From Gammaproteobacteria bacterium (GTDB lineage: Bacteria; Pseudomonadota; Gammaproteobacteria; GCA-2400775), in the NCBI GenBank assembly GCA_013151045.1, contig JAADIY010000037.1, positions 1 through 58,225 of the forward strand: a stretch of 58,225 nucleotides of DNA, read 5' to 3'. Shown piece by piece: positions 8,143 to 47,144 of the stretch. The notes below the pieces were generated by a model that was not told where the DNA came from, did not search any database, and saw only the letters and a list, made by a program, of their open reading frames with translations. Each line of letters begins with the position of its first letter. The first letter of the stretch is position 1. Position numbers and translations under genes: made by a program.

Positions 8143-8387
8143 GACGCGGTGCTATTTGACTCAATTAGCTTATTAACGCGATCTGAAGGCTGCGCACCTT
8201 GGCTTAACCAATAATCGATGCGTTCAGATTTGAGCTGCAAACGAACTTCTTGACCCGTAGCAACTGGGTTAAAAAACCCAACACGCTCGATATAACGACC
8301 ATCACGAGGCATACGCGAATCTGCAACTACTACGTGATAAAACGGCCGTTTTTTAGCACCACCCCGTGCTAGACGGATTGTGACCAT
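8139..8387 (-). CDS. rpsP: 30S ribosomal protein S16
   Basis: Small-subunit assembly protein of 82 residues, the standard length. It begins [20 protein letters not shown], followed by [13 protein letters not shown] and the [13 protein letters not shown] box. GGAGAG lies about twelve bases before the ATG. It is the first gene of the operon here because ffh, its usual upstream neighbour, lies 12 kb away. Confidence 0.97.
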
Positions 8388-8688
8388 GAAATACTCTCCG
8401 GAAAATACAGTCTTTCGGTAAAAACGGCGGATTATATATAAAATTGTGCCTTAAAGTACAGCGTAATCTGCCTAAACTATGATTTTCTCGCCATAACACT
8501 TCTTTAGATAATACTAAACACGGTTTCTACCGTGGATTTGCCTTTGGTGTAGATGGCCTAGCAAGTAAATTAGAGCTGAAATAGAACATCCCTGAACTTT
8601 ATAAATAATAATGAAGATAGGATTGATTCTCAATTACTTTTGTATTAATATTCTATTCAGCCGCGTTAATGAAGGAATTCAATAAAAA
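8388..8688. promoter_or_regulatory. divergent intergenic region: rpsP promoter side and receptor promoter side
   Basis: The region holds a TATAAT on the minus strand (plus-strand ATTATA at 8431-8436), 44 bases from the rpsP start, as a likely -10 element. The receptor-side promoter is listed separately. The middle part (about 8450-8600) is AT-rich and shows no gene I can support. Confidence 0.5.
8611..8651 (+). promoter_or_regulatory. sigma70 promoter with overlapping Fur-like box for the siderophore receptor
   Basis: TTGATT (8623-8628) and TAATAT (8646-8651) are separated by 17 bases, a good housekeeping promoter 37 bases upstream of the receptor gene. The stretch ATAGGATTGATTCTCAATTA covers the -35 box. 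Its TGATTCTCA core matches half of a typical Fur box (TGATTCTCAT type), the other half being poor. Inference: iron-repressed transcription by Fur. Confidence 0.5.
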
Positions 8689-26390: not shown

Positions 26391-26392
26391 GA

Positions 26393-29910: not shown

Positions 29911-30611
29911 AGCAATTGCTCATTACAGGCGTTAACCAAGGCGTCACCGTCTAAACAACCAACGTCATGCTCTAACCATGAAACCACACCAGTTAGCAAT
30001 TTTTTACCACCCACGACTAGCGCTGCAGGTGCTTCACGCATCGAATTAGTCGTAATTTTCATAACGCCATGAACTTGCGCAACTGAGAAAACAAATACAT
30101 GTTGACGACTTTCAATCACAATACAGCGATGGCGACCATTCTCTACTGCATCGTCTTTCGCACCCCCCATCAAGCCTTCTAAGCTAATCCACGGTACTAA
30201 CTGGCCATGCACGCTCATCAAACCTTTAAGAATCTCCCTGTTTCGATGCGGAAGACAATGGGTTACACCTATCTCACTAACTTCTTTAACCATGCTGGTG
30301 CGAATGGCCAACCATTCATTACCTAAACGAAAAATCGTGTAGGAACTGTTATCTGCTACGGACTCTTGCACTTCGGCAATGCTTTTACTGTCGGCCCACT
30401 CGCCAACGTATTCAAGGTTAGCTGCATTTTCAAACAAACGCCGTCCAGCCCGAGTAAAGACGTCACAATTACGACAATGAATCACTTCTTGTAAACGCGA
30501 ACAACGTGGTGTCTGATTACCCCAAACACCTGTTTGATTCCAGCAATCTTCACCGCTAGCCGTCACCAACGGCGCCAAACTATGCGGATCCATAGGTGTC
30601 AAGCGCTGCAT
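29907..30611 (-). CDS. wspD: CheW-like scaffold protein, WspD type, with N-terminal cysteine cluster
   Basis: 234 residues. The C-terminal two thirds form a CheW domain (FRLGNEWLAIRTSMVKEVSE; GLMSVHGQLVPWISLEGLM; GVMKITTNSMRE). The N-terminal 55 residues contain Cys-W, CSRL and HCRNCDVFTRAG, four cysteines and a histidine in a pattern seen in WspD proteins that may bind a metal; that function is inferred. The protein would couple receptor and kinase. Its start overlaps the stop of the cheR-like gene (TGATG). Confidence 0.9.
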   Translation of the reverse strand: MQRLTPMDPHSLAPLVTASGEDCWNQTGVWGNQTPRCSRLQEVIHCRNCDVFTRAGRRLFENAANLEYVGEWADSKSIAEVQESVADNSSYTIFRLGNEWLAIRTSMVKEVSEIGVTHCLPHRNREILKGLMSVHGQLVPWISLEGLMGGAKDDAVENGRHRCIVIESRQHVFVFSVAQVHGVMKITTNSMREAPAALVVGGKKLLTGVVSWLEHDVGCLDGDALVNACNEQLL

Positions 30612-31807
30612 CAGGATGCCATCCGCGATCTTAGCCGTTCTATGCGCTGTGTCGTCAAGGTTAACAACCCTTCATCATCGAGCTGTTTGGCGCATTCCAT
30701 CAGCTGTTCTAAGGCAGCCATATGCTCTGAGTCGAGATACAATACTTTTTGGTATAGCGTTTTAGCAGTTAACCAATCTTCTTTTTTACGTGCAATAGTC
30801 GCCAACAGATAAAAACCACGGCTATTTAGCGGTGCCATTTCTACAGCGCTCTGACAAAGATAACGCGCAGCAATAAAATCACTAGCGTCAATCAACTGCT
30901 CTGCTTGTATAAGAAAACGATTGACTATCGCCGCATCATTCTGGTTAGGGCGGTTACGCACAGCATTAACACTATTTTTTTCTGGCTTCGCTAACCGGGC
31001 TGATTTCTTCTCAGCTTTAATAAAGACAAAGGCACCTTTATGTTTAACAGACTCAAGTTGACTAAGGCGCTGCACAGAATTAACTTCGGCGTGGCCAACA
31101 AAAAATACGCCCCCGGGAACAATACTGTCTACCAATGATTGACACACCTGCAACTGCGTATCGGTCTCAAGGTATATCAGCAAATTACGGCAAAATATAA
31201 TGTCGTACTTGTGTCGCGCTAATAAAGTACTTGTTTCAAGAATATTACCTTGTCGAAAATTAACCATTTCACGCACTTCATCATCAAGGTAATAAAGGCT
31301 ACCCTGACGATCGAAAAAACGTTGGCATCTACTATCTTCATCACCACGAAAAGAGTTTTCGCGATAAATGCCTCTACGTGCGGTTTCTACGCATCGGCCA
31401 CTAATATCAAATGCATCGATATTAATAAGGTCTTTAGGCACACCAATTTGCTTTAACACCATTGCTATGGAATATGGCTCTTCTCCTGTCGAACAGGGAA
31501 AGCTCAAAATATTAAGTCGACGCTCGCCACGGTTATCTAACCATTCGCCGGTAACGTACTGGGCAAGGTAGTCAAAAGGCGTGCGGTCGCGAAAAAACCA
31601 TGTCTCAGGAACAACAATCTCTTCTATTAACAAGGCTAATTCATTGCCACCGCTTTTTCTCAGATAAGCAATATATTCCTCGGTCGATGCATTATCTGTC
31701 TTGGTTCGACGCAAATTCACGGCACGATCTATCCCGCTAGTCCCAACCTTAAAGTAATCAAAGCCGATTGCGGACTTTACTAATTCGTATACCGTTGACT
31801 TATCCAT
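30611..31807 (-). CDS. wspC: CheR/WspC-like chemoreceptor methyltransferase with C-terminal TPR
   Basis: 398 residues from the ATG at 31807 (an upstream TTG at 31816 is possible). The CheR domain has the SAM-binding loop FPCSTGEEPYSIAM, FDISGRCVETARRGIYRENSF, and CRNLLIYLE followed by GGVFFVGHAEV. The C-terminal part (RFLIQAEQLIDASDFIAARY; LLATIARKKEDWLTAKTLYQ) is TPR-like, as in WspC. It methylates glutamates of the receptor to tune adaptation. Confidence 0.93.
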   Translation of the reverse strand: MDKSTVYELVKSAIGFDYFKVGTSGIDRAVNLRRTKTDNASTEEYIAYLRKSGGNELALLIEEIVVPETWFFRDRTPFDYLAQYVTGEWLDNRGERRLNILSFPCSTGEEPYSIAMVLKQIGVPKDLINIDAFDISGRCVETARRGIYRENSFRGDEDSRCQRFFDRQGSLYYLDDEVREMVNFRQGNILETSTLLARHKYDIIFCRNLLIYLETDTQLQVCQSLVDSIVPGGVFFVGHAEVNSVQRLSQLESVKHKGAFVFIKAEKKSARLAKPEKNSVNAVRNRPNQNDAAIVNRFLIQAEQLIDASDFIAARYLCQSAVEMAPLNSRGFYLLATIARKKEDWLTAKTLYQKVLYLDSEHMAALEQLMECAKQLDDEGLLTLTTQRIERLRSRMAS

Positions 31808-31836
31808 GACTATCAATAAAGAAAGGGTTGAAAAAT

Positions 31837-32319
31837 CTAGGCGACTTCAAGTGAAGAATCTACTGAGAATAAATAGCGATGCACCGCATCTGGCAAAATA
31901 CGTTGGCTATCTAAACAATGGATAGTGCCGTGTTTATCTTCAAACAAGTGGCCGTGACTCAAACCCGCGCCTTCACCCACTGAAATTGCTCGTAGATCAC
32001 TATCAGCAATTTTACGCGTCTCTGTGACCCCTTCTGCAATAAGCCCCAACCACCTTGCTTGTTGTTGATCACGCGTGTAATTAACGATAAGAATGCGCGT
32101 GCTCATCACCTTTATTGCCTCTCTACCACAAGCCATGCGACAAAAATCAACAACTGGGACGGGAACATTACGGTAACAAAGAATACCGTTGAGATATTCT
32201 GGCGCACCAACAACTGATTTCGTCTCTAAGATAGGCAGCACTTCAACAACGTTACCCGCAGCAATAGCATAGCGTTGACCGTCTACGTGAAAGACCAGGT
32301 ATAAGGTGCTAGAGCCCAT
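31837..32319 (-). CDS. wspB: CheW-like scaffold protein, WspB type
   Basis: 160 residues, a single CheW domain: YLVFHVDGQRYAIAAGNVVEV, LNGILCYRNVPVPVVDFCRM and ILIVNYTRDQQQARWLGLIA. It links the receptor to the CheA-like kinase; the operon has a second, larger CheW (29907). It begins five bases after the receptor gene stop, so the two are co-translated. Confidence 0.93.
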   Translation of the reverse strand: MGSSTLYLVFHVDGQRYAIAAGNVVEVLPILETKSVVGAPEYLNGILCYRNVPVPVVDFCRMACGREAIKVMSTRILIVNYTRDQQQARWLGLIAEGVTETRKIADSDLRAISVGEGAGLSHGHLFEDKHGTIHCLDSQRILPDAVHRYLFSVDSSLEVA

Positions 32320-32324
32320 ATGTG

Positions 32325-34322
32325 TTACGCACTCACTTTAAAGCGTGACACACCGCCCTGTAGACTTTGTGCAGCATCATTAAGCCGCTCAATAGTAATC
32401 GTTGATTGACGAATAGAATCTAAGGTTTGTTGCGCTGCGTCGTTCAACTGAACGATTGTCTGCTTAATTTGATCTGCGCCTTTAGATTGAAATTGCATTC
32501 CTTCATGAACATCTTCAAAACGCGGAGTCAGTTTTTGCACTTGCTCGATAATATGAACAAGCTGACCACTCACCTTACTCATGTCATCGACACTGCTACG
32601 TACTTCTTCAGAGAATTTATCGACGCTCATGACACCTGCAGATACGGCGGCCTGCATTTCTTTAACCATTTGCTCAATATCTAGTGTCGCCACCGCAGAT
32701 TGGTCAGCCAAACGGCGTATTTCGGTGGCAACGACCGAGAAACCGACACCGTACTCACCGGCTTTTTCAGCCTCGATAGCCGCATTCAACGAAAGTAAAT
32801 TCGTCTGATCAGCGACCTTAGTAATAGTCGTAACAACACTGTTAATGTTGCTGGCTTTTTCACTCAACACTTCAAGCTTAGCGCCTATCGTTTCCGACGC
32901 TTTAACAACACGCAACATGGTAGATTCCATACGCGTCAAGAGTTCCTGACCTTCGGTAGCAGACTGCGCAGTACTATCCGCAACATTCGACACATCATCC
33001 ATTGTATTCAACAACTCTTTTGACGTTGCTGATATTTCAGTTGCCGTAGCAACAATATCGTTTACTGTTGTCGCTTGCTGCGCGATAGTCACTTCTTGCT
33101 GCTTAGACGTCGCAGCAATTTCAGTGGCCGAAGATGATACCGAGATACCGGAACGCTGCACCTGTGCAACCAGGTCGTTTAAGTTATCGATCATAGCCTG
33201 CACGCCGCGCGCCATACCTGATAAGCTATCGCTGCCGTCCAAGTTGATACGTCCGGTTAAATCACCGCCACCCGCACGATTAACCACTTGTGAAATATCT
33301 TCAACTTTATTCTTTAAGACGTCTATTTGCGTTTCACGCTCATCCATTAACGATCTCAAATTATCGATCATTGATTGCAAACCACGACCCAATTCACCAA
33401 TAGAGTCACGCGAATCAAAATTGACCTTACCGGTTAAATCGCCCTCTGCAGCGAGATTAACGACATGCAATAGTTCATCAATTTTTCCGCGCATATCATT
33501 AGCAGATGATGATTCCTTATCAATCATGTCATCCATGGTGTCAGTCATTCCATTGAAGGCTAAAGACAACTTACCAATTTCATCATCACCATTAATGGGA
33601 ATACGTATATCGCGATCACCTGCTTGTCTCGCACGCAAAACCTCTGTGATTTCGCTGAATGGCTGACTGAGCCAACGGCGCAAACCTAACAAAACCAAAC
33701 TAATACCAGCAATCAATAGAATCATTGAAGCAATAACAATATAGGTAGTGTCTTCTTCAACGGCTTTATCAAGTTCTGCTAAGGAAAATTCAACACGCAC
33801 CGCTCCGTTGACGGTACCAGGCGCAACGTTATGACAAGCTAAACAATCAACGCCATTATTATTACTGGTCGCTCTAAAGGGTGTTAATACCACTAATTCA
33901 CGACCAGAATCGCTACTTTCAATTTGCAAAATTTCTTCGCCCGCTAACGCCCGTCTATCTAAATCGTCTTGTGGCAACTCTGATCCATCAGACAAACCTG
34001 GGCCGTATTGCTGACTGACAGATTCTGCGCGTAATACACGCGCATCGATTACGCCAGGGCGCTTAATAATTTTTTTGCGCAAAATATCACGCTGATCCAT
34101 GGTGCCTGTGAGCATCATGGTATTGAGGCTGTCGAAATAAAAATGAGTAATTTCTTTAGCATGATTTTCCGCCATAGAAAGCATGCGTTCTTTCTCGTTT
34201 TTCGCAAAGAACGAAGTGATAGCAATCACAATGACCATAAACACCAAGGCCACCATCAATCCAAGCTTCGCCGTTACCGATAGTCTGCTGAAATAACTTC
34301 GTGAATCCTTATTGAGTATCAC
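32325..34322 (-). CDS. wspA: WspA-like chemoreceptor with periplasmic c-type haem motif and repeated HAMP domains
   Basis: 665 residues from a GTG at 34322 that has AGGGA seven to eight bases upstream; a TTG ten codons earlier is weaker. First membrane helix (LGLMVALVFMVIVIAITSFF), a periplasmic domain of about 150 residues, a second helix (YIVIASMILLIAGISLVLLG), a HAMP domain, two further HAMP-like repeats (EGDLTGKVNFDS and GGDLTGRINLDG), then the methyl-accepting signalling hairpin with TNLLSLNAAIEAEKAGEYG. The periplasmic domain contains CLACH (residues 160-164), a CxxCH covalent haem attachment motif. Inference: haem-based redox or gas sensing feeding c-di-GMP output. First gene of the wsp operon. 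Confidence 0.92.
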   Translation of the reverse strand: MILNKDSRSYFSRLSVTAKLGLMVALVFMVIVIAITSFFAKNEKERMLSMAENHAKEITHFYFDSLNTMMLTGTMDQRDILRKKIIKRPGVIDARVLRAESVSQQYGPGLSDGSELPQDDLDRRALAGEEILQIESSDSGRELVVLTPFRATSNNNGVDCLACHNVAPGTVNGAVRVEFSLAELDKAVEEDTTYIVIASMILLIAGISLVLLGLRRWLSQPFSEITEVLRARQAGDRDIRIPINGDDEIGKLSLAFNGMTDTMDDMIDKESSSANDMRGKIDELLHVVNLAAEGDLTGKVNFDSRDSIGELGRGLQSMIDNLRSLMDERETQIDVLKNKVEDISQVVNRAGGGDLTGRINLDGSDSLSGMARGVQAMIDNLNDLVAQVQRSGISVSSSATEIAATSKQQEVTIAQQATTVNDIVATATEISATSKELLNTMDDVSNVADSTAQSATEGQELLTRMESTMLRVVKASETIGAKLEVLSEKASNINSVVTTITKVADQTNLLSLNAAIEAEKAGEYGVGFSVVATEIRRLADQSAVATLDIEQMVKEMQAAVSAGVMSVDKFSEEVRSSVDDMSKVSGQLVHIIEQVQKLTPRFEDVHEGMQFQSKGADQIKQTIVQLNDAAQQTLDSIRQSTITIERLNDAAQSLQGGVSRFKVSA

Positions 34323-34709
34323 CAGTCGTTCCCTAGTCTGTAATTTTATCAATCGCTGCCTTGCTCACTCACCCCCGACGACATGCAAACAGCCCGTTGG
34401 CCAACTAAGCAAATAGAACAGTGACCTCAGAGTAAACAACGGCCGCAGAGACGAATTCTTTAAGGCAACTCCAGTAGTAGCAAGAACGACAATGTGAGCG
34501 ATAGTCGGCCAAAAAGCACCTTTAGATAACAATTCACGTAAATAACGCATCTTTTCAGTGAATATGCTATTGTTCACGCTTTCAAGACTAAATGTGCGCC
34601 GAGTGTATTGCGCTAGACTAAGAAACCGCATTTCGATATTGTCTGCATCCCTGATGCCAAGCCCCAACACCTCTGCCCCCTGTAGCCTTACCCAATCAAA
34701 TTACTTGTC
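34323..34709. other. divergent promoter region between wspA-like and EAL genes
   Basis: About 390 bases between divergent genes. A minus-strand frame of 101 codons (34365-34670) covers most of it but shows no domain, and it would overlap both promoters, so I do not call it. I see no convincing operator or terminator. Confidence 0.5.
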
Positions 34710-36389
34710 ATGACTCAAAGCAACCGTTTTTCGGCGAAATTAAACGAAAATACCGAGTTTTTAGGCGATGATCACCAAAATTCTCGCGTACTGGATAATA
34801 TTCGCGACGTCATCTTAGAGCTTGATGCACAGGGAAAATTAATATTTATCAACCCAGCATGGAGCGCCCTAACAGGGCACAACAACAAGCAATCGCTAGG
34901 TACCCTGCTAAGCAGCTATATCCACACAGACGATAGCGCCAACTTTAACTCGATGGTTGAACGCATCATCAACGCCGATAACGACCACACCAGCAATGAA
35001 GTGCGCTTAATCTGCCAAAATAAAGACACCATTTGGGTCACTCTTTCGCTAGACAGCAAAATGATAGGTAGTGACAAAGCCATATTCGGCTGCATAGTGG
35101 GTGCAAGCAAACACCATATCTATCACCCATCACCCATTTCACATGACGCAGTCACCGGCGCCTTTAATCGCCATCATTTTGAGCTCGAGTTACAGTCACA
35201 TATCAACTCATTGCCGGCACAATCAAACCGTCATGGTTTACTTTATCTCGAACTAAGAAATTTTAAACTGATCAACCAAGCACTGAGTCATGCCGATGGT
35301 GATAACGCACTGAAAGAAATTGCTGAACTACTCTCATCATGCTTACAGGGTCATGACCAGCTATGCCGTATAGGTGGCTACGAATTCGCGCTATTTTTGC
35401 ATTCTCGCAATCAAACTGAAATTGACGCCGCTGCGAATAACATCTTAAAGCAACTTGCCAGTTACCGTTATAGCCGCGAACCTTTTAGCTTTATCATCGG
35501 TGGCAATATCGGTATACGATTAATCGACAACAGCGATATTAAAGCCAGCGAATATATCTCTGACGCAGTTAAGGCCACAGCAATATCAAAAAAAATGGGC
35601 CGCAACCACAGCCATCTTTACACTCAAGAAGACAGCGACTCAGACCCGTCACATGGCTGTGACTGGAGCCACCACATTCACAGAGCAATTGAAGAAGACC
35701 GACTCGAGCTTTATCTGCAACCCATTCGTTCCATTAATGACAACAAAATCAATCATTACGAAGCACTGCTTAGACTTATTGATGCCGACAGTGGCAAAAT
35801 TATCCAACCCGAACAATTTATCGACGCCATCGAACGCTCTGGTGCAATCGTTGATGTTGATCGTTGGGTTATTACCAACGCCATTAAATTACTCAGCCAA
35901 CAACCACAAATACATCAGCTCGCCATCAATTTGTCAGCACATGCCTTTGAAGACGCAGAACTGCATATGCTCATTCATTCACAACTCAAGCATTTTCAAG
36001 TCGCACCACAGCGCGTCATTCTTGAGCTGACAGAAACCAGCAGCCTAATCAACCTCGAACAAACACATACCGTCATCAACAACCTACGCAAGATAGGCTG
36101 CCAATTTGCACTCGATGATTTTGGCACCGGCTTTTGTTCGTTTAGCTATTTAAAACACCTACCAGCAGACTATGTAAAACTCGATGGCTCATATATTAAA
36201 AATATTTGCGACAACGAACTCAATCAAGTCATGGTTCGCTCAATGAACGATATGGTGCACGCAATTGGCCATAAAACCATCGCCGAATGCGTAGAAAGCC
36301 CACAAGCTATAGAGCTACTTAGCGATATCGGTGTCGACTATATTCAAGGGTTTTCTGTCGGCAAACCATCACCATTGGCCATCCAATAA
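34710..36389 (+). CDS. PAS-GGDEF(degenerate)-EAL protein, probable c-di-GMP phosphodiesterase
   Basis: 559 residues, cytosolic. PAS domain (NIRDVILELDAQGKLIFINPA), then a GGDEF domain whose active site is altered to RIGGYEFALFL, so cyclase activity is unlikely. The C-terminal EAL domain is intact, with YEALLRLID, LSAHAFED, LELTETSS, LDDFGTGFCSF, KLDGSYI and AECVES supplying metal and base residues. It probably hydrolyses c-di-GMP to pGpG. It lies divergent from the Wsp operon, opposing its output, and 115 bases ahead of the TPP-enzyme gene. Confidence 0.92.
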   Translation: MTQSNRFSAKLNENTEFLGDDHQNSRVLDNIRDVILELDAQGKLIFINPAWSALTGHNNKQSLGTLLSSYIHTDDSANFNSMVERIINADNDHTSNEVRLICQNKDTIWVTLSLDSKMIGSDKAIFGCIVGASKHHIYHPSPISHDAVTGAFNRHHFELELQSHINSLPAQSNRHGLLYLELRNFKLINQALSHADGDNALKEIAELLSSCLQGHDQLCRIGGYEFALFLHSRNQTEIDAAANNILKQLASYRYSREPFSFIIGGNIGIRLIDNSDIKASEYISDAVKATAISKKMGRNHSHLYTQEDSDSDPSHGCDWSHHIHRAIEEDRLELYLQPIRSINDNKINHYEALLRLIDADSGKIIQPEQFIDAIERSGAIVDVDRWVITNAIKLLSQQPQIHQLAINLSAHAFEDAELHMLIHSQLKHFQVAPQRVILELTETSSLINLEQTHTVINNLRKIGCQFALDDFGTGFCSFSYLKHLPADYVKLDGSYIKNICDNELNQVMVRSMNDMVHAIGHKTIAECVESPQAIELLSDIGVDYIQGFSVGKPSPLAIQ

Positions 36390-36504: not shown

Positions 36505-38409
36505 ATGTCTTTACTCCGACCAATGGGTCAGTTGTTAGACAAAAAAATATCAGTTTCAATTGGGCAGTATGAAGCTGGAGACCTAATTCTTGACTATCTA
36601 AAAGAGTTAGGTGTCGAATATGTGTTTGGTATTCCTGGTGGCGCAATAGAGCCTCTATACAATGCGCTAGTACGAAGCTCGACTGACGGCGGACCCAAAT
36701 CTATCACTGCAAGACATGAAGCTGGCGCCGCCTTTATGGCAGATGGCTATGCGCGGGAAACTGGAAAGCTAGGAGTTTGCATCGCGACCAGCGGGCCAGG
36801 CGCAACCAACTTAATCACCGGCATAGCTTCTTCATACATGGATAGGGTTCCTTTATTAGTCATAACAGGCCAACCATCAATTGACACATTCGGCGGCCTC
36901 GCGTTCCAAGAGTCTTCTTGCTCAGGCATTGATATCGTCGCAATGTTTAAATATTGCACAGCTTACAGCAGCCTGGTCTCACATTCCGATCAATTAGAGC
37001 GCAAACTTATAGCCGCCATCGCTGCGGCTCTACGACACCGCCGCCCCGTGCATTTAAGTATCCCTACCGATATTGCACGCAGCAAACACCAACGATCATT
37101 CGGGCAACAACTATTACCTAAACACCCTATCAACAACGCTATCGATATAAATGCCATCGAGGAATTCGACCGGAGGCTTTCCCAATCCATCAGCCCAGTA
37201 TTTGTTATTGGTGAAAACTGTGAAGGTGCGATTCGCGATATTACTCAATATTGCGAAAACAACGGTGTCTCACTCGTTGCAACACCGCAAGGAAAAGGCC
37301 TCATCAATCCCTATTACTCTAAGTACTATGGGGTATGTGGTCTTGCTGGACATGAGTCTGCGATAGACTTACTCAATTCACCTAAAACAGATCTCATTGT
37401 TATCATTGGCAGTTCACTAGACCAACAAGCCGCATGCGGATGGCAACCTACCAACATTTCATCAACAAACTATATTCATATAGATTGTGATCCAGAACAC
37501 TTCTGTAGAAGCCCTTATTCAACTTTCAATGTGCTAGGCAACATCAAGCGAACATTTGGGCATCTAAACAAATCGATGAAGCCATCATATAACCAAGCAA
37601 CACGTCAAAAAGAAAACAATGCTAACGTGCTTGCAATAAAACCACTCCTAATTGAACGCCGACAGATTGAGAGACGAAAAAAAAATATCCCTACTTGCAC
37701 TATAAAAGAGTTTCGCATCGGTGAAAGAAGAAAAAACTCAGCCAACTCAAAACCCCTCCATCGAAACTTTAAACTGATAGACGAATCAAAATACCTAGAG
37801 GACAGTTCACCAATCAAACCTCAACGCCTTATGTATGAACTATCCCATCGCACTAAACACAATACTTGTTTTCTATCAGACATCGGCAGCAGCTATTTAT
37901 GGGCAATTCATTACCTCAACCCATACCATGATATAGATGGCCCCAATAAAAGATATTTGCATATGGCTATGGGGTTAGCATCCATGGCTTGGTCGATAGG
38001 CGCGGCAATTGGTATAGCGCTCGCTTCCCCAAAAAAACCGGTCGTTTGTATCGTCGGTGATGGCGCCTTGCTAATGAGCGGTCACGAAATCACTGTTGCT
38101 GTTGAGCACAAATTACCTATCATCTATATAGTACTTAACGACGAAGCCTACGGCATGGTCAAACATGGCCAAAAAATGGCGGGGGCTGAATTAACCAGCA
38201 CCAACTTACCCGCCGTCAATTTTGCCAACTATGCACACTCCATCGGCGCAAAAGGAATTACAGCGAAATCACTACAAGACTTTATGTCAGTTGACTTTGC
38301 AACACTCAGTAAAGCTCATACACCCACATTAATCGACGTACATATCGACGTAACCGAAGCGCCACCTTTATCCAGCAGGTTAAAAATGCTAACTTCATGT
38401 CAAAACTAA
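36505..38409 (+). CDS. acetolactate-synthase-like thiamine-diphosphate enzyme with an arginine-rich insert
   Basis: 634 residues. Pyrimidine-binding domain with the catalytic Glu72 in ARHEAGAAFMADGYAR, TSGPGATN and LLVITGQPS; a central domain; and a pyrophosphate-binding domain with VGDGALLMSGHEITVAV (Asp-Gly 519-520 region) and Asn545. Instead of the GMVxQWQ motif of true acetolactate synthases it reads GMVKHGQ, so the acceptor probably differs. Residues 383-411 form an insert with IERRQIERRKKN and RIGERRKNS, absent from ordinary family members. It starts a likely operon with two citrate-synthase-like genes. Substrate unknown; a carboligase or decarboxylase acting on a 2-oxo acid is expected. 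Confidence 0.8.
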   Translation: MSLLRPMGQLLDKKISVSIGQYEAGDLILDYLKELGVEYVFGIPGGAIEPLYNALVRSSTDGGPKSITARHEAGAAFMADGYARETGKLGVCIATSGPGATNLITGIASSYMDRVPLLVITGQPSIDTFGGLAFQESSCSGIDIVAMFKYCTAYSSLVSHSDQLERKLIAAIAAALRHRRPVHLSIPTDIARSKHQRSFGQQLLPKHPINNAIDINAIEEFDRRLSQSISPVFVIGENCEGAIRDITQYCENNGVSLVATPQGKGLINPYYSKYYGVCGLAGHESAIDLLNSPKTDLIVIIGSSLDQQAACGWQPTNISSTNYIHIDCDPEHFCRSPYSTFNVLGNIKRTFGHLNKSMKPSYNQATRQKENNANVLAIKPLLIERRQIERRKKNIPTCTIKEFRIGERRKNSANSKPLHRNFKLIDESKYLEDSSPIKPQRLMYELSHRTKHNTCFLSDIGSSYLWAIHYLNPYHDIDGPNKRYLHMAMGLASMAWSIGAAIGIALASPKKPVVCIVGDGALLMSGHEITVAVEHKLPIIYIVLNDEAYGMVKHGQKMAGAELTSTNLPAVNFANYAHSIGAKGITAKSLQDFMSVDFATLSKAHTPTLIDVHIDVTEAPPLSSRLKMLTSCQN

Positions 38410-38422: not shown

Positions 38423-39241
38423 ATGCCACAAAAAAAAGAAGTTATTCATACCAAAATCTGGCAAGAAGAAGCTGAAAGCGATAATCCTTTCGCCACAAAA
38501 CGCTGTCTATGCAGTGGTTATGATGTCTATGGTGATCTTTTGGGGAAAATCAGCTGGATCGAATACCTCTATCTTATTTATTGCTTAGAACCACCCTCTC
38601 AAAAACAAAGCAAACTACTTGAAGGTATTGCGGTCATTTTAGCTAACCCTGGGCCCCGAGACCATTCAGTGCGCGCCGCAATGCTAGGGGGAGTGGGTGG
38701 CTCACACAGTGCTGCTAGCCTAATGGCGGCCTTATCAGTAGGTGCTGGGCAGCTAGGTGGTGCCAGAGAGGTCTTTCTTGCCATGGAATATTGGCAACAA
38801 TGCAATTGCTCCTTGCAAGCATGGCAAGAAATCATTCTACAACCACCAAAACAAACACGCGTTGATGTTTGGCCAGAAATGGAACATACACCAGGCTTTG
38901 ATCCACATGGTGCCAGTTGCCCTACACCAATCAAACAAAGTCTAGAATACCTCGCGAGCAGCACACCGGGCGAGACACTTCCATGGCTACAGAAACATCG
39001 CAAAGAATTAGAAAATTGCGCTGAAATGCCACTTGCGCTAACCGGAGTGATCGCATCAGCATTTACCGATCTAAAACTAACACCAGAACAAGGTGAAATG
39101 ATTTACTTGCTATTACGTTTACCTGGCGCTGGTGCACACGCCCTAGAACAGCGCCAGCATGGCTGGCGTAAATACCCCTTCTTTAAAGATGCCATTGTGC
39201 TAACTGATGACCCTGGCCCCGTTAACGTGGATAAATCATGA
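38423..39241 (+). CDS. short citrate-synthase/citryl-CoA-lyase-like protein A
   Basis: 272 residues, the size of citryl-CoA lyases and about 160 shorter than citrate synthase. The fold is suggested by SGYDVYGDLLGKISWIEYLYL, GGVGGSHSAASLMAALSVGAG, QLGGAREVF and the end segment PGAGAHALEQRQHGWRKYPFF. Usual catalytic positions are changed: LHGGA is QLGGA (residues 110-114), GxGHP is GFDPHGA (158-164), and no NVD motif appears before TGVIAS. It lies 13 bases after the TPP-enzyme gene and overlaps protein B by four bases. Inference: one half of a heteromer acting on a CoA thioester or a product of the TPP enzyme. Confidence 0.75.
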   Translation: MPQKKEVIHTKIWQEEAESDNPFATKRCLCSGYDVYGDLLGKISWIEYLYLIYCLEPPSQKQSKLLEGIAVILANPGPRDHSVRAAMLGGVGGSHSAASLMAALSVGAGQLGGAREVFLAMEYWQQCNCSLQAWQEIILQPPKQTRVDVWPEMEHTPGFDPHGASCPTPIKQSLEYLASSTPGETLPWLQKHRKELENCAEMPLALTGVIASAFTDLKLTPEQGEMIYLLLRLPGAGAHALEQRQHGWRKYPFFKDAIVLTDDPGPVNVDKS

Positions 39242-40041
39242 GCTCAACAGAAAAACTATTAGCGGCAGAAAACAATTGGCAAACCTCAATGGGGCGCTGG
39301 TTTGCCGGTGAACGCGTAGTTATACGCGGCAAAGATTTGTTTACCGAACTCAAAGATATGCGGTGGATGGAGCTCATGTTATTCTCAATCACTGGGCGAC
39401 ATTTCAGTGAAAATGAACTTAAACTGCTTGAAGGAATGTGGGTCCTCTGCACAAGTTATCCTGACCCCCGACTATGGAATAATCGTGTCGCATCACTTGC
39501 TGGCACAGTTCGATCAACACCTACACTAGCATTAAGTGGCGCAAACTCCCTCTCAGAAGCAGAAATATACGGGCGCAAACCTGACGTTAGAACTTATGAT
39601 TTTTTGGTGCGCTGCCAAGAAACACTTAAATCGACCGATGCTTGTCTGGAAGACATAATACGGCAAGAATTGAAAACACATCGGGTCATACCAGGTTATG
39701 GCAGACCTATAATTAGCAAAGATGAACGCATCAAACCTATGACTGAGCTCTCAATAAAGCTCGGTGTGTTTGATAAGCCATACATCAAACTAGCGCACAC
39801 AATTGAAAATGCCTTATCAGAAGGACGGTGGCGCATGAAAATGAATATTGCCGCATTTACCGCAGCGCTTGCTCTTGACTTAGGGTTATCTAGAAATGAA
39901 TATCTCCGTTATGCTGCACTCAGCTTTTCAAGTGGGCTATTAAGCTGTTACATCGACGCCAATGACCAGGCCCTAGGCACCTTTTTACCAATTCGGTGCA
40001 GTAAAATTTCATACGAAGGCAAAAATGTAAGAAACTGGTAA
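39238..40041 (+). CDS. short citrate-synthase/citryl-CoA-lyase-like protein B
   Basis: 267 residues, related in layout to protein A (RGKDLFTELKDMRWMELML; LKLLEGMWVLCTSYPDPRLW). The GYGHP motif is VIPGYGRPIISKDERI with Arg156 in place of the catalytic His. The GGA loop reads LSGANSLSEAE (99-109). The Asp motif NVD appears as NIAAF (203-207). All three usual citrate-synthase residues therefore seem lost. Start and stop overlap with protein A as ATGA, so the two are made in step, which supports a hetero-oligomer. The activity cannot be predicted. Confidence 0.75.
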   Translation: MSSTEKLLAAENNWQTSMGRWFAGERVVIRGKDLFTELKDMRWMELMLFSITGRHFSENELKLLEGMWVLCTSYPDPRLWNNRVASLAGTVRSTPTLALSGANSLSEAEIYGRKPDVRTYDFLVRCQETLKSTDACLEDIIRQELKTHRVIPGYGRPIISKDERIKPMTELSIKLGVFDKPYIKLAHTIENALSEGRWRMKMNIAAFTAALALDLGLSRNEYLRYAALSFSSGLLSCYIDANDQALGTFLPIRCSKISYEGKNVRNW

Positions 40042-40123
40042 ACTACATTGCAATCTTAAAGTTGTAGTTACAGGTGGTCGATATCATATCTTGTGAGGGA
40101 ACAAATACGCAGTGGAGGGAGCA

Positions 40124-42208
40124 ATGCGACCACGTTTACGCTCGTCGCTTGGGCTAAGCCTAATACTATTAGGCAGTAATACAGCTTTAGCGATATCTCA
40201 GGAAGACGAACTAGACTTGGGTTATGGTGGCGAGGAGTTCATCAGCCTAGCAACTGGGGCAAGCCAACCTATCTCGCGCGCACCTGCCGTCGCCAGCGTA
40301 ATAACCGCAGATGATATTGAAGCACTAGGTGCTACTGACATTGATGAAATCTTAGAAACCGTGCCCGGCTTGCACGTCTCCAGGTCTGCGCTCGCATATA
40401 ACCCTATCTATTCAATTCGAGGTATTTACTCTAATAGTAATTCACAGGTATTAGTCCTTATCAATGGCATACCAATCACCAATTTATTCGTGGGTAATCG
40501 CAGTGATATTTGGGGAGGCATGCCCGTAAAGAATATCTCACGTATCGAAGTTATCCGTGGCCCTGGTTCAGCACTACATGGTGCTGACGCGTTTTCTGGC
40601 ACAATCAATATTGTAACCAAATCTGCTAAGGAACTTGATGGCACTCGGGTCGGCGTGGGAGTGGGCTCGTTCGATAGCCAACGTGCTTGGCTTCAACATG
40701 GGCATAGTAATAACGGTCTCGATGTCGCGTTTTCATTACAGTACTATAAGACGGACGGACAACGTGAAATTATCGATTCTGATGCGCAGACTGGCTTAGA
40801 CCCTTCTATTTCAAATGCGCCAGGCCCAGTCAATACACAAGCTGAAACCGTTGACCTTCGACTAGACCTAAAGCGTAACCACTTGCAGCTGCGTTTGGGC
40901 TATCAAGGCCGAAAAGGTATTGGCACCGGCGCAGGCGTTGCCCAAGCACTAGACCCTAATGGTAACGGTGATAGTGATCGCTTCAATGCTGACTTAACTT
41001 ACAAAAATGACCACTCTCTAGACAATTGGGATTTTATTGGGCAATTAAGCTACCTAGATACCAGCGCAAAATCTGATTTATTTCTTTTCCCCGCTGGCAC
41101 TAGCCTCCCAAATGGACAAACATTTCCAAATGGCGTTATAGGTAATCCCGATGTTTTTGAGCGTCATGCTCGGCTTGGTGGTTCTGCTTTTTATCACGGC
41201 TTCGACGACCATCGATTACGCTTCGGCGCGGGTGTTAATTTCGATGAAATTGACAGAGTTAGAGAAAGCAAAAATTTTGGCCCTGCATTACAACTTTTAC
41301 CTGGAGGCCTGACAGACACAACCAACGATCCTGACCTCGTCTTTCTTCAACCAGGCAGCCGCACTATTCAATATGCATTTGCACAAGATGAATGGCACTT
41401 CGCTCCTGATTGGGATCTCACTGGCGGTATTCGATGGGACAATTACTCGGATTTTGGTACTACGGTTAACCCGCGCGCAGCGCTAGTATGGCAATCTGCA
41501 TACAACCTTACAACAAAGCTATTATATGGCCGTGCTTTTAGGGCTCCATCATTTCAGGAAACCAGAAACCTAAATAACCCTGTAGCCCTTGGTAATCCAA
41601 ATCTAGACCCAGAGATTATTGACACTATAGAACTAGCCTTTGACTATCATCCCACACACAATATGGCAACTACCCTTAATATATTTCGCTATGAATTAAG
41701 GGACATCATTCGCTTCGTACCAGGCACTGGCCCTAATGATGAAGCTACCGCACAAAATACAGGCGACCAAACTGGTTTTGGCCTAGAATGGGAAGTAGAT
41801 TGGCAAACCAGTTCATCGCATACACTACTCGCAAACTATGCCTATCAAAACTCTACCGACGAAGACACCAATAGCGATGTCGCCAATGCTCCCCAGAATC
41901 AAATCTATCTTCGTAGTGATTGGGAATTTATTCCTGATTGGAAATTAAATACCCAGTTAAATTGGGTCGGCGATAGAAAACGTGCTGTTGGTGATTCCCG
42001 AGACGATATCGATGACTACACTACGGTTGATTTAGGCTTGCGACATAGCTTTAGAAATATGCCTCTCGACATATCTCTAATTATACGCAACCTATTTGAT
42101 GAAGATGCTCGCGAGCCTAGTCTTACTGGTAGCCCTGCTGCTGCAATAACTAATGATCTACCACTACCCGGTATTAATGGTTTTATAAGTCTGGAATATC
42201 GTATCTAA
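40124..42208 (+). CDS. TonB-dependent receptor (paralogue 1), FepA/BtuB-like plug
   Basis: 695 residues from an ATG with GGAGGG eight bases upstream (a GTG four codons earlier is in frame). Signal peptide (LGLSLILLGSNTALA), plug domain with SVITADDIEALGATDIDEIL, YSIRGIYSNSNSQVLVLING and ISRIEVIRGPGSALHGADAF, and a 22-strand-type barrel ending in ISLEYRI. Ligand unknown. It follows the citrate-synthase-like gene B by 80 bases in the same direction and is probably co-regulated with it. No perfect TonB box is seen. Confidence 0.9.
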   Translation: MRPRLRSSLGLSLILLGSNTALAISQEDELDLGYGGEEFISLATGASQPISRAPAVASVITADDIEALGATDIDEILETVPGLHVSRSALAYNPIYSIRGIYSNSNSQVLVLINGIPITNLFVGNRSDIWGGMPVKNISRIEVIRGPGSALHGADAFSGTINIVTKSAKELDGTRVGVGVGSFDSQRAWLQHGHSNNGLDVAFSLQYYKTDGQREIIDSDAQTGLDPSISNAPGPVNTQAETVDLRLDLKRNHLQLRLGYQGRKGIGTGAGVAQALDPNGNGDSDRFNADLTYKNDHSLDNWDFIGQLSYLDTSAKSDLFLFPAGTSLPNGQTFPNGVIGNPDVFERHARLGGSAFYHGFDDHRLRFGAGVNFDEIDRVRESKNFGPALQLLPGGLTDTTNDPDLVFLQPGSRTIQYAFAQDEWHFAPDWDLTGGIRWDNYSDFGTTVNPRAALVWQSAYNLTTKLLYGRAFRAPSFQETRNLNNPVALGNPNLDPEIIDTIELAFDYHPTHNMATTLNIFRYELRDIIRFVPGTGPNDEATAQNTGDQTGFGLEWEVDWQTSSSHTLLANYAYQNSTDEDTNSDVANAPQNQIYLRSDWEFIPDWKLNTQLNWVGDRKRAVGDSRDDIDDYTTVDLGLRHSFRNMPLDISLIIRNLFDEDAREPSLTGSPAAAITNDLPLPGINGFISLEYRI

Positions 42209-42367
42209 TATTTCTCACCACTTTATTTTTTTAATAATAATTAGAAACATAATTGCTTCCACCTTATTTCGATGCCAAAAGTGCTCCAGTCTATTTCATT
42301 CAAAACCATATTATCAGGCATAGTGCTTGACTATAAATATGGATGTTAAATAGAAAATCAGGTCAAA

Positions 42368-44512
42368 ATGCTTCTCTTTCTATTTTCTTTATCTAAAATA
42401 AATCGGCTGCAACGAAAAAACTGCTTGCTGATTTTTATATTGCAATACCTCTCCACTCCTGTGGCTATACAGGCAAAATCCCATGAAGATCTAGATGTTC
42501 TCTATGCCAATGAAATCATGACTAGCCTAGCTACCGGCACCAGCCAACCCATATCACTTGCACCAGCTGTAGTTAGCGTCATCACGGCAAAAGATATCGA
42601 CATCATCGGCGCAACTGATCTTGATGACATACTAGAAACCATACCCGGCCTACACGTCTCTAGGTCTACGCGCTCAAACCTACCAAATTTTATTATTAGA
42701 GGCATACATTCAGAAACCAATTCGCAAGTTCTAATTTTGATTAATAGTATTCCCGTGACTAATCTATATCTTGGTGAACGCGGCCAAGGCTGGGGAGGAA
42801 TGCCCGTAGAAAATATCTCTCGTATCGAAATAGTCCGTGGCCCTGGCTCTGCTTTATATGGTGCTGATGCCTTTGCTGGTACTATCAACATAGTCACCAA
42901 ATCAGCTAACGAGATCAATGGTACGCAAATAGGTGCGGCGATTAGCTCAACTGACATTTCGTCCACTTGGTTGCTGCATGGCCAACGCTACAATCACTTC
43001 GATTTTGCTTTTTCTTTTCAGTACACCAACAACAATAGCCAAGGCCCATTAATCACTGCTGATGCACAAAGCTTACTTGATTCCAGTCAAGGTACTGCTG
43101 CTTCAAACGCTCCCGGCTTTGCGGACAACCAAAGAGAAAATATTGACGTTCGCATTGACCTAACACGCAATAATTGGCAATTTCGACTCGGCTACCAGGG
43201 CAGAAAAAACATCGGTAACGGAGCAGGTATTGGTATGTCACTTGACCCCGAAGGAAGGGCCCTCTCCGAAAGACTCAATGCTGATCTGAGCCATAAAAAC
43301 CACCATAGTTTTGAGCACTGGAATATCGATTCACAGATAAGTTATTTTGATAGCAGCCTAAGAACAGATTTAACCCTCTCGCCCGCTGGTGCACAGTTTC
43401 CAAACGGCGCGTCCTTCCCCAATGGGGTTATTGGTAATCCGTCTATCTTTGAACGTCACTTAAGGTTAGGTAGCTCTGCTTTTTATTCTGGCATAGCTCA
43501 TCATCGTATTCGTATCGGTGGCGGCATCAATTTCAATGAAATTGATCAAATCAAAGAAAGCAAAAACTTTCTTATCGACGACATGTTATTTCCTTCACCC
43601 ATAAGCGCTGACTTTGCTGTAGTTGACGTTACAAACAACCCAGATCTAGTATTTTTCCAACCAGGAAGTAGAACCAATATTTTTGGATTCTTTCAAGACG
43701 AATGGAACTTCTCGCGTGACTGGAATCTCACTACTGGAGCGCGTATAGATCGATATTCTGATTTTGGCAACACGTTCAACCCACGCGCAGCCCTCATCTG
43801 GCACCCTAGCTACCATCTCACTACTAAATTTTTGTATGGCCGCGCATTTCGAGCACCTTCTTTTGCTGAACTACGCAACATTAATAATCCCGTATTCTTA
43901 GGCAACCCTAATCTAGAGCCAGAAACTATCGATACAGTTGAATTAGCATTCAGTTATCAACACTCTCAATATATCTCTAATAACCTCAATTTTTTCTACT
44001 ATAAATGGCAAGATATTATTCGCTTTGTCCCCGATAATAGCGGCGTATCGATAGCGCAAAATACCGGTGATCAAACCGGCTTTGGCTTGGAATGGGAATT
44101 TGACTGGCGCCCTAGCTCAACATTTGATGTTATAGCAAACTACGCCTTTCAAAAATCCACCGATGAAGAAACAAACCGCGATGCGGCCAACGCCCCACAG
44201 CACCAAGTATACCTGCGCAGTAGCTGGGTTTTTGCCCACAATTGGTCATTCACTAGCCAATTAAATTGGGTCGGTAGCCGCAAGCGTGAGGCAAGCGATC
44301 CGCGTGACAACATTGGTGACTTTACTTGGGTTGATTTGGGATTGCGTCATACGCTAAGAAAGACGCCACTTACTATTTCACTGTCTATTCGCAATGCACT
44401 CAATGAGAATGCTCGCGAACCTAGCTTAAATGGAAGCCCTTCGCCTGCTATACCCAACGACCTACCACTGCCAGGTATTCACGGTATTCTCGCTGTTGAA
44501 TATCGAATTTAG
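42368..44512 (+). CDS. TonB-dependent receptor (paralogue 2)
   Basis: 714 residues, clearly a duplicate of the preceding receptor: the plug reads GATDLDDILETIPGLHVSRS, NSQVLILINSIPVTNLY and IVRGPGSALYGADAF, and the barrel matches it through the end (LAVEYRI). The N-terminal segment is longer and lysine-rich before the hydrophobic part (LLIFILQYLSTPVAIQA), so the true start may lie a few codons later. The spacer of 159 bases from paralogue 1 has AT-rich sequence and no strong terminator. The two probably bind related compounds. Confidence 0.88.
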   Translation: MLLFLFSLSKINRLQRKNCLLIFILQYLSTPVAIQAKSHEDLDVLYANEIMTSLATGTSQPISLAPAVVSVITAKDIDIIGATDLDDILETIPGLHVSRSTRSNLPNFIIRGIHSETNSQVLILINSIPVTNLYLGERGQGWGGMPVENISRIEIVRGPGSALYGADAFAGTINIVTKSANEINGTQIGAAISSTDISSTWLLHGQRYNHFDFAFSFQYTNNNSQGPLITADAQSLLDSSQGTAASNAPGFADNQRENIDVRIDLTRNNWQFRLGYQGRKNIGNGAGIGMSLDPEGRALSERLNADLSHKNHHSFEHWNIDSQISYFDSSLRTDLTLSPAGAQFPNGASFPNGVIGNPSIFERHLRLGSSAFYSGIAHHRIRIGGGINFNEIDQIKESKNFLIDDMLFPSPISADFAVVDVTNNPDLVFFQPGSRTNIFGFFQDEWNFSRDWNLTTGARIDRYSDFGNTFNPRAALIWHPSYHLTTKFLYGRAFRAPSFAELRNINNPVFLGNPNLEPETIDTVELAFSYQHSQYISNNLNFFYYKWQDIIRFVPDNSGVSIAQNTGDQTGFGLEWEFDWRPSSTFDVIANYAFQKSTDEETNRDAANAPQHQVYLRSSWVFAHNWSFTSQLNWVGSRKREASDPRDNIGDFTWVDLGLRHTLRKTPLTISLSIRNALNENAREPSLNGSPSPAIPNDLPLPGIHGILAVEYRI

Positions 44513-44532: not shown

Positions 44533-46167
44533 CTAGCTCGCCAGCACCTCACCTTCTTCTTGATGTTCTTGCAATGGCAGTGGGATTGTAAAATACAATA
44601 CTGAACCTTCGCCTACCTTGCTTTGTACTTCTATTGCGCCGCCCATCAGCGTACAGAGTCTCTGCGAAATAGTTAAACCAAGACCTGTACCACCAAAGTT
44701 TTTGGTGGTAGTCATATCCGCTTGCTTAAACGCTTTAAATATACGCTGTTGTTGCTCTTCATCCATGCCAATTCCGGTATCAGCCACTGAGCAAAATAAA
44801 GCGTCTTCGTTATGTTCAATCTTTAGCGTTATCATGCCTGACTCAGTGAACTTCGCGGCGTTACTTAGCAGGTTAACGAGTATCTGTCTTAATTTAACCG
44901 GGTCCATCCATAGTGGACTGCCATCGGTAATGATTTCCTTCTGAAATTGATTGTGTTTACTTTTAATTAACGGAAATACGGTATCTTCAACTTGGCGCGC
45001 AAGCTGTTTTAATTCGACCATATCGCATTCTAGTTCCATACGACCTGCTTCGATTTTCGCCAAATCAAGAATATTGTTAATCATAGATAACAAATGTTTG
45101 CCCGCGTTTTCAACACGGTTCAAATCGTCAATGCAATCATCTGTATCAAAACTACCACCGCGTACATCTTCAATGACCATGCTGGTATAACCCAACACTG
45201 CGTTCATCGGTGTTCTCAACTCGTGGCTCATATTGGCAAGAAAGGCTGATTTATGCTTACTTGCTTGAATGGCCTTATCTCGCGCTTCGAGCAACTCGCG
45301 TGTTCGCACTTTAACTTGATTCTCTAAGTCGTCATTTTGATTACGCAAACGTAAATCACGTTCGTCTAACACATCCATCATGATATTAAATGCCCGCGCC
45401 ATATCCTGAATTTCTATTGGTCCTCTAACAGCAACACGCGACGTTTCTTTCTCGGCATCTTGCTCACGCATCAATGTCGATAACTCACTCAATGGTGTCG
45501 TCACCCGCGACAACGCTTTTTGCAAGACAAACAATATTAAGATTGCCAAGACAACAGACACGCCGATATTTTGCAGAATAGTCGTCGTACGCTGCGCATT
45601 GAGCGCGGCTTTACTGATAATAATGTCTGCGTAACCCAGTAAATTGGGCTCTTGAACATCGCTAACAATAACGCCTATTTCATCATCATTGAATCGACGT
45701 TCCAACACGGGTGAGCGAAAACAAATATGATCGTCTGTCTCCGAAAATAAGATTGTCTCTGTGACCATAACTTCATCGCCACCATTTACATTCGATTTCG
45801 ATTGCGCTGAAATATTCAGCGCCTTTACAATATCCGCAGAATGGTCGCCTTCATGCAATAATACTTTGCCATCAAACGTTCGCAGTGAAATATGCATAAC
45901 ATTTGGAAATGACAAAGTATTGGCTACAGACTCTTCGACGTTTTCAGCCGAACCAAACAACAATGCCAACACACTTTGCTCAGCAAAACTTTCTGTCAGC
46001 TGTAAACCTTGGTCAACCAATTGATCTCGTGAATTTTTACTCGTCACCCATGCAGTTAATAATGCGGTAATCAGCGCCAGGGAAAATATTCCTACGGACA
46101 CCAGCAGCATTATTTGGCGTCCAAACTGACGATTAGGTGGCAACAATAATCTTAGCAAGGCTTTCAT
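44533..46167 (-). CDS. membrane sensor histidine kinase
   Basis: 544 residues. Membrane helix (IMLLVSVGIFSLALITALLTA), periplasmic domain of about 140 residues, second helix (IGVSVVLAILILFVLQKAL), HAMP, coiled coil, HisKA with the phospho-His in ANMSHELRTPMNAV, and HATPase with LLSNAAKFTESG, DTGIGMDEE and GGTGLGLTIS. No receiver is attached and no response-regulator gene is nearby, so its partner lies elsewhere. Eight bases after the substrate-binding protein gene, so the two form an operon. Inference: the binding protein presents a ligand to this kinase. Confidence 0.92.
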   Translation of the reverse strand: MKALLRLLLPPNRQFGRQIMLLVSVGIFSLALITALLTAWVTSKNSRDQLVDQGLQLTESFAEQSVLALLFGSAENVEESVANTLSFPNVMHISLRTFDGKVLLHEGDHSADIVKALNISAQSKSNVNGGDEVMVTETILFSETDDHICFRSPVLERRFNDDEIGVIVSDVQEPNLLGYADIIISKAALNAQRTTTILQNIGVSVVLAILILFVLQKALSRVTTPLSELSTLMREQDAEKETSRVAVRGPIEIQDMARAFNIMMDVLDERDLRLRNQNDDLENQVKVRTRELLEARDKAIQASKHKSAFLANMSHELRTPMNAVLGYTSMVIEDVRGGSFDTDDCIDDLNRVENAGKHLLSMINNILDLAKIEAGRMELECDMVELKQLARQVEDTVFPLIKSKHNQFQKEIITDGSPLWMDPVKLRQILVNLLSNAAKFTESGMITLKIEHNEDALFCSVADTGIGMDEEQQQRIFKAFKQADMTTTKNFGGTGLGLTISQRLCTLMGGAIEVQSKVGEGSVLYFTIPLPLQEHQEEGEVLAS

Positions 46168-46175: not shown

Positions 46176-47144
46176 CTATTCTTGTGGAAACTTCAGGTCG
46201 TAACGCCCTAAACTTTCCTTGTTGAGCTTAATTCCTAAATGCGATGCCGTTCTGATATTGATCGCAAAACCTAAATCGGTTAGTGGTTTTATTTCGAATT
46301 GAGGTTCGCCAGCGCGTAGCCATTCATTGACTGTCCCGGCTATACTTTGCCCCATCTCTATATTTTTAGGGAATGTAGAAAACAATGTGCCGCGTTTTGC
46401 ATGCGGCGCGTTACTTGATACGACTATTAAATTTTTATCCCAGGTCACACGTAATATCAATGGCAGTATCGTGCGATTCTCTACCGTGATTGGGTCTAAC
46501 GGTAGCCATAAGGCATCGTGCCCTGTCTCCAGTTCATTTAGCACTGATTTATATTGTATAGCTGCCTGCCTAAGATCAGTGGCCTGAAGGGGCTTGAGCT
46601 CGATACCATAATCTTCAGCAATCTTGCTCGCATATTGCATCAACCAATCATTATGCTTAGGGCTATAAACTACATAGATTTTTTTGACGGCAGGAGAGAG
46701 TCGCTTAAGTTCAGCCATTATCAATTCTGGATCAGCAGCCAGGCTAATTCCACCCGTATTACCGCTTTCCAATAAGCTTGCTGACAACAGCGAAGCTGCA
46801 GCCATAATAGGACGCCCATTGGCAGTCTGTTGCGCTGCTTTGAGCCCGCGGCTACCAAAAGCCACGATGGCTATGACATTTTTCTTATCTAACCACGCTG
46901 AAATTTTTTCTTGGTTGTAATCGCTGCTGATTTTTTTGATGCTGACTTTAAAATCAGCTTGTTCTTTTATGCCGTTAACGATGGAGCGAAACACTTGATC
47001 ATAGGGGGCGCGTAAATCTGGCTGGAACACCGCAACGGTCTCTTTTCCTTGCGCAGAAGAAATACACAGAAAAAAAACAACCCCTAAAAAAAAAGTCTGT
47101 TGCCACATGCCCTTGGGGCACAATTTTTTTAACATGTTATCCAT
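46176..47144 (-). CDS. ABC-type substrate-binding protein (ABC_sub_bind, PF04392-like)
   Basis: 322 residues with a signal peptide (FFLGVVFFLCISSAQG). The mature part has VFQPDLRAPYDQVFRS, IVAFGSRGLKAAQQT, KKIYVVYSPKHNDW and ALWLPLDPITVENRTILPLI, as in the periplasmic-binding-like fold of this family. No ABC permease or ATPase is present, so transport is unlikely here; the next gene is a sensor kinase with a periplasmic domain. The start may be the first ATG (47144) or the fourth codon. A hairpin lies just upstream of the start. Confidence 0.85.
   Translation of the reverse strand: MDNMLKKLCPKGMWQQTFFLGVVFFLCISSAQGKETVAVFQPDLRAPYDQVFRSIVNGIKEQADFKVSIKKISSDYNQEKISAWLDKKNVIAIVAFGSRGLKAAQQTANGRPIMAAASLLSASLLESGNTGGISLAADPELIMAELKRLSPAVKKIYVVYSPKHNDWLMQYASKIAEDYGIELKPLQATDLRQAAIQYKSVLNELETGHDALWLPLDPITVENRTILPLILRVTWDKNLIVVSSNAPHAKRGTLFSTFPKNIEMGQSIAGTVNEWLRAGEPQFEIKPLTDLGFAINIRTASHLGIKLNKESLGRYDLKFPQE

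Follow-up and report, generated by a model that had tools for sequence, protein, structure and literature searches.

A recurrent pair of citryl-CoA-lyase-fold proteins with an apparently replaced catalytic set, encoded beside a ThDP enzyme and putative sensor genes in Gammaproteobacteria

What can two proteins do when both are predicted to have the fold of citryl-CoA lyase (CCL) and neither has kept the catalytic residues of that enzyme? The question is raised by two genes, here termed A and B, found in the window, that is the whole stretch of 58,225 nucleotides of gammaproteobacterial DNA that was analyzed (contig JAADIY010000037.1). The preliminary description of this DNA, made from the letters alone, had noticed the two reading frames and had left three options for their products, namely that they complement each other's sites, that they catalyze a different reaction, or that they only bind a CoA compound. 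Both frames were recovered, the stop of A and the start of B sharing the four bases ATGA, and they are presented in Table 1 together with the neighboring genes, among which is a ThDP-dependent enzyme (T).

Table 1. Position, strand and basis of assignment of the features discussed in the text (window coordinates).
Feature	Position	Strand	Basis
PAS-GGDEF-EAL protein, directly upstream of T in a subset of modules	34710..36389	+	
T, ThDP-dependent, acetolactate-synthase-like / putative CybE-type acyloin synthase, 634 aa	36505..38409	+	Pfam TPP_enzyme N, M and C domains
A, predicted citryl-CoA-lyase-fold subunit, 272 aa	38423..39241	+	ORF, NCBIfam, AlphaFold model, alignment
Overlap of A stop and B start, 4 bases (ATGA)	39238..39241	+	
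B, predicted citryl-CoA-lyase-fold subunit, 267 aa	39238..40041	+	ORF, NCBIfam, AlphaFold model, alignment
Codon of B R156, replacing the catalytic His of GYGH; Arg in 43/43 B	39703..39705	+	
Codon of B C237, invariant Cys	39946..39948	+	
TonB-dependent outer-membrane receptor, conserved module member	40112..42208	+	Pfam Plug and beta-barrel, neighbor tables
Second TonB-dependent receptor, paralogue of the first	42368..44512	+	
Membrane histidine kinase (HAMP, HisKA, HATPase; weak sCache_4), conserved module member	44533..46167	-	
Periplasmic binding protein, ABC_sub_bind PF04392, conserved module member	46176..47144	-	

In size and in predicted fold both proteins resemble CCLs, as had been proposed. 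The CCL of Hydrogenobacter thermophilus (6hxp) ranks first in a PDB sequence search for A and for B, and it is also the best PDB match found by Foldseek for the AlphaFold models of the two subunits (built from 34 and 32 homologues, pLDDT 85.4 and 89.7), with TM values of 0.76-0.79 for B and 0.68-0.72 for A; Foldseek ranks CCLs highest with either model, so that comparison of the predicted structures recovers the CCL fold for each single chain. The likeness to 6hxp and to the CCL module of ATP-citrate lyase includes the length of about 270 residues and the CoA-loop motif PGF/GYG, and B keeps the DPR arginine and A the AHxxE motif. However, the scores lie far below the curated cut-offs: the CCL subfamilies of NCBIfam (PRK06224) match A with E = 2e-12 and B with E = 1e-13, at CCL scores of at most about 47 and 51 bits, respectively, against cut-offs of 193-261, and the citrate synthase family of Pfam (PF00285) gives 26.3 bits for B and 10.4 bits for A, both under the gathering score of 27. 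For A and B, no family of Pfam or NCBIfam scores above its threshold, and the pair is unnamed in the libraries searched. The two genes do not represent the citrate synthase of this genome, because an ordinary citrate synthase gene is present in one copy elsewhere in it. A plasmid search with B returned only ordinary CCL-like genes, at 24-26% identity, and a scan for promoters and terminators gave a number of sites no higher than in shuffles.

The catalytic positions were compared by aligning 40 A and 43 B proteins with 15 CCL-type sequences that came from other genomes; in the CCL-type set, 11 of the 15 carry both catalytic histidines (His-1 and His-2) and the catalytic Asp, and the other four keep His-2 only. 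No member of this His/His/Asp set stands at the aligned columns of either protein of the window, as the preliminary description had maintained from individual motifs, most of which are placed correctly by the alignment. In B, the motif GYGRP has R156 at the His-2 column and NIAAF has A205 at the Asp column; in A, QLGGA brings L111 to the His-1 column and GFDPHGA brings P161 to the His-2 column, and T207 is found at the Asp column. The motif LSGAN of B (residues 99-103), taken at first for the counterpart of LHGGA, was instead read in the wrong register, being about 10 residues upstream of the His-1 column; the latter holds I110/Y111 in the alignment with the 15 CCL-type sequences, and the counterpart of LHGGA lies in or just after EIYG. 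The placement of the His-1 counterpart of B varies by a few residues between alignment methods, and none of them puts a His there. The losses extend to the homologues: the Asp is gone in 83/83 A and B sequences and His-2 in 82/83, the exception being the A protein of locus L100, and the His-2 column is occupied by Arg in all 43 B and by Pro, Ser, Leu, Ala or Thr in A, with that one His. His-1 is gone in 43/43 B and present in 13/40 A, all of divergent sub-lineages, the group of the window having mostly Leu.

The preliminary description had also proposed a search of homologues for newly conserved residues, and invariant ones are found, mainly in B. In this protein R78, R156 and C237, which CCLs do not have, are present in 43/43 sequences, as are R164 and R265, and an alignment of 34 sequences includes W80, N82 and the stretch D162-E163-R164 among the invariant positions; in A, the invariant residues are R79, H239 and E242 (40/40). 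R78 of B sits in a PxPR motif that in A holds R79, and C237 of B occupies the position of the His of AHxxE in CCLs and A. Since both proteins have such invariant residues, the catalytic set appears, on sequence grounds, to have been replaced rather than to have decayed. In citrate synthase we take the substrate-binding arginines to be R329, R401 and R421. By this numbering, R164 of B is equivalent to R329 and R265 to R421 (each in 43/43 B; CCLs align poorly in the R421 column), and R232 of A is equivalent to R401, being kept in the group of the window and in 19/40 A overall. The substrate-binding arginines would then be divided between A, with the R401 equivalent, and B, with the other two. 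Mutual completion of a citrate-type site, the first of the three options, finds no support: only these arginines are split between the subunits, and neither has any of His/His/Asp.

A and B are related to each other (hhalign profile comparison, probability 99.1), and in the tree A, B and CCLs form three groups with SH-aLRT values of 94, 100 and 92, respectively, the A and B clades containing matching sub-lineages; the grouping of A with B is conditional on the use of CCLs as the root. The two are probably sister paralogues that arose by one old duplication of a gene whose product would have been CCL-like, followed by co-inheritance. They occur together in 46 of the 51 loci having either, a recurrence well beyond chance; some copies of A or B were hidden by the overlap filter applied to ORFs and were recovered with profile searches. 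Three of the five loci without the full pair (L129, L132 and L133) are at a contig edge, in L070 A is fused to T, and in L078 A is present and B was not detected near it. A first scan of genome contigs had found two relatives only. The pairing now spans more than 20 families with reading frames intact, and it also occurs outside Gammaproteobacteria. A 1:1 pair, suggested earlier by the ATGA overlap, is favored by the adjacency or overlap of the genes in nearly all loci and by the matching sub-lineages. In L071, counted among the 46 and belonging to a single-contig complete genome, B is truncated (82 aa, 9460-9705) after intact T and A genes; it adjoins an ORF of 578 aa on the opposite strand, possibly as the result of an insertion or as part of a decaying module.

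T ends 13 bases upstream of A. Its catalytic Glu (E72) and the cofactor motif GDG...N are intact, being conserved in 38/38 homologues. The closest solved structures are BbmA (8x3x, 283 bits) and CsmA (8x3z, 213 bits), followed by the best acetolactate synthase (193 bits), and the same ranking is obtained with the T protein of L130. T also resembles ordinary acetolactate synthases, and with 289 bits it does not reach the cut-off of 538 for the acetolactate synthase equivalog of NCBIfam. With its class set by the nearest solved relatives, T would be a CybE-type ThDP acyloin synthase, which differs from CybE, CsmA and BbmA of the furanolide pathways in its company of A-B and sensor genes and, in the window, in an additional Arg-rich linker. 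This insert (37600-37800) separates the middle and C-terminal ThDP domains and has repeated ERR motifs (ERRQIERRKKN...GERRKN); a similar one is present in the T of L131 and none in those of L130 and L070. BbmA is presumably the enzyme written as 'BpmA' in the work on CybE. In 2025, CsmA and 'BpmA' were named as homologues of CybE, and CybE-type enzymes make alpha-hydroxy-beta-keto acids, CybE itself joining two alpha-keto acids (PMC12395478). The CybE product is then joined to an acyl-CoA by CybF, giving a furanolide (PMC12395478; PMC13288894), CybF being annotated as a 3-oxoacyl-ACP synthase (PMC8777810).

The link between A and T is nearly obligate. In the sample of 369 gammaproteobacterial genomes, once two canonical CCL hits had been discarded, 41 genomes carry A and 48 carry T, with 39 having the two together (Fisher 1.6e-41). 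Of 95 relatives, 16 have the PF04392 binding protein and 18 have T, every genome with the binding protein being among the latter (p = 3e-16). These p values treat genomes as independent and overstate the evidence, and the distribution across more than 20 families carries more weight. Two genomes at first taken for module members (G357 and G193) were rejected, their hits being canonical CCLs. Of the two genomes with A and without T, G038 has a broken T and G132 has its locus close to the end of a contig. In the 51 A/B loci T is found in 44, the TonB receptor in 37 and the PF04392 binding protein in 30, kinase and GGDEF/EAL genes being common neighbors. Possible cognate sensor genes thus adjoin the putative synthase genes. 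Kinases may be found beside the genes in loci that have no TonB receptor: in L072, a response regulator and hybrid kinases flank T-A-B, and in L101 (9392-14575) a protein of 1727 aa with Ser/Thr kinase, AAA, GAF and histidine kinase domains follows T-A-B, replacing the TonB receptor and the binding protein. The window has two TonB receptor paralogues in tandem (40112-44512), most other modules having a single receptor. It also contains, adjoining the module, a chemosensory operon on the minus strand (25362-34352) that resembles the Wsp surface-sensing system, with a response-regulator GGDEF protein, CheB, a CheA-like hybrid with Hpt and CheW, CheW, CheR and an MCP; parts of it (MCP/CheR) are beside the module in several close relatives (L053, L061, L063 and L065). 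No exporter for the product of the module was identified, and a search of open-license papers found none on the T-A-B module.

T is the constant part of the system and the enzyme encoded after it varies. In the genome G037 (locus L130), the order is T, a KASIII-like gene, TonB receptor, binding protein and kinase, and A/B is absent; this T is 33% identical to that of the window over 614 columns, and the KASIII-like gene (4691-5683, minus strand) matches the FabH subfamily of NCBIfam with E = 1e-58, below the cut-off. In G136 (L134), the place of A/B is taken by a SAM-dependent methyltransferase (7509-8306, minus strand) overlapping T by 4 bases and followed by TonB receptor, binding protein and kinase. 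In three other genomes (G079, G182 and G206; loci L131, L135 and L136), T adjoins a kinase with neither A/B nor a KASIII gene nearby, the regions L131:6647-10691 and L136:8339-12443 encoding a FIST-type sensor protein along with T and a histidine kinase, and having no A/B, TonB receptor or binding protein. G068, a further candidate for T without A/B, was rejected, a B fragment being present at the contig end. The variable slot, observed with other enzymes in single genomes (G037 and G136), is the strongest hint that A-B acts chemically on the product of T and is not merely a structural subunit.

The reading that we favor, although tentatively and at a little less than even confidence, is that A-B is a retooled heterodimer by which the product of T is tailored, probably with an acyl-CoA as partner, to a small molecule that the neighboring gene products sense or retrieve. 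T would couple two alpha-keto acids in an acyloin reaction dependent on ThDP, giving an acyloin-type acid. A and B would form a heterodimer with clefts lacking the citrate-type His/His/Asp and bearing the new, strongly conserved residues, mainly in B; the T product and an acyl-CoA would bind in this remodeled CCL cleft, where they would be joined, exchanged or rearranged, the direction of the reaction presumably being synthetic. This step would correspond to that of the KASIII-type CybF, which acts after CybE on the way to furanolides. A-B and CybF would share their likely position in the pathway, with an acyloin product and an acyl-CoA, and by analogy the replacement of A-B by a KASIII-like gene in L130 is consistent with it; A-B has instead a predicted CCL fold and not a thiolase/KASIII fold, and the likeness concerns only the way of working. 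The final product would be a small diffusible molecule, perhaps a cell-cell signal, sensed or imported through the TonB receptor, the binding protein and the kinase or c-di-GMP proteins. Of the three options for the pair, a different reaction fits best, because new invariants of B are found at the former catalytic positions and a KASIII-like enzyme fills the slot.

The absence of the catalytic set from both subunits would also suit a regulatory or scaffold pair of T, non-catalytic, which would bind CoA or acyl-CoA in the old cleft and tune or channel T like the small subunit of acetolactate synthase. Near-obligate co-occurrence with T agrees with this role, and so does a fusion found in nature: in L070, T and A form one frame of 886 aa (6276-8936), with B starting 4 bases before its end. 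We nevertheless regard a regulatory pair as unlikely, since catalytic types (KASIII-like, methyltransferase) hold the slot elsewhere, which suits tailoring better, several T genes are without A/B, and the invariant polar residues of B seem more than a ligand sensor would need.

Cleavage is a direction open to ThDP lyases as well as to CCLs. The module could then be catabolic, with the adjoining TonB receptor and binding protein importing a substrate, T and A-B degrading it and the kinase inducing the genes. However, the conserved genes of the module include no inner-membrane transporter, no ABC permease was seen beside the PF04392 binding protein, and the c-di-GMP and chemosensory neighbors suggest signaling; degradation therefore seems quite unlikely to be the role of these genes. 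Retention of a citrate-type CoA aldol or lyase reaction by A-B, with acid and base supplied by shifted residues, would be in keeping with the CCL fold, with the His-1 of some A proteins and with the acid-binding arginines split between the subunits, but it is improbable in view of the loss of the Asp from every homologue and of His-2 from all but one, the A of the window being without His-1 too. Finally, that A and B are duplicates in decay or with moonlighting roles and share no function, as the lost residues and the truncated B of L071 might suggest, is hardly credible and already contradicted by the new invariants, the intact frames and the pairing across more than 20 families.

Returning to the tailoring heterodimer, its fold and its parts are of known kinds, and their combination with a replaced catalytic set appears undescribed in the libraries searched. 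Unlike CCL, A and B are two different genes forming a pair and linked to a ThDP enzyme. A precedent for a condensing enzyme made of two paralogues in signal synthesis is PqsB-PqsC of the Pseudomonas quinolone signal, a heterodimer of paralogues of CoA condensing enzymes, one of which has no active site; there, however, the fold is that of thiolase and PqsC keeps its active site, whereas A and B have both lost the ancestral one. In LuxP-LuxQ and in CqsA-CqsS / LqsA-LqsS, a binding protein or a signal synthase is encoded beside a sensor kinase, and the molecules involved are of hydroxyketone type, as the product of the module may be. The layout of binding protein plus kinase in LuxP-LuxQ is like that of the module, although the putative synthase of the module is unrelated to those systems and a TonB receptor is present. 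It is conceivable, if doubtful when all parts are taken together, that these genes make up an undescribed signaling system of Gammaproteobacteria and of some other bacteria of the same phylum, in which T, as a CybE-type enzyme, would make an acyloin core, an exchangeable finishing enzyme (A-B, KASIII-like or methyltransferase) would set the dialect, the receptor, binding protein, kinase and c-di-GMP proteins would sense the product, and A-B would be the retooled heterodimer.

The pair is more significant than the preliminary description suggested, which did not cover the ThDP enzyme, the receptor and sensor genes or the wide conservation. If the favored reading is true, the citrate synthase / CCL fold would have acquired a new chemistry as a heterodimer in which the catalytic set has been lost from both subunits, and the finding points to a widespread module for the synthesis and sensing of a small molecule, unnamed in the family libraries searched.
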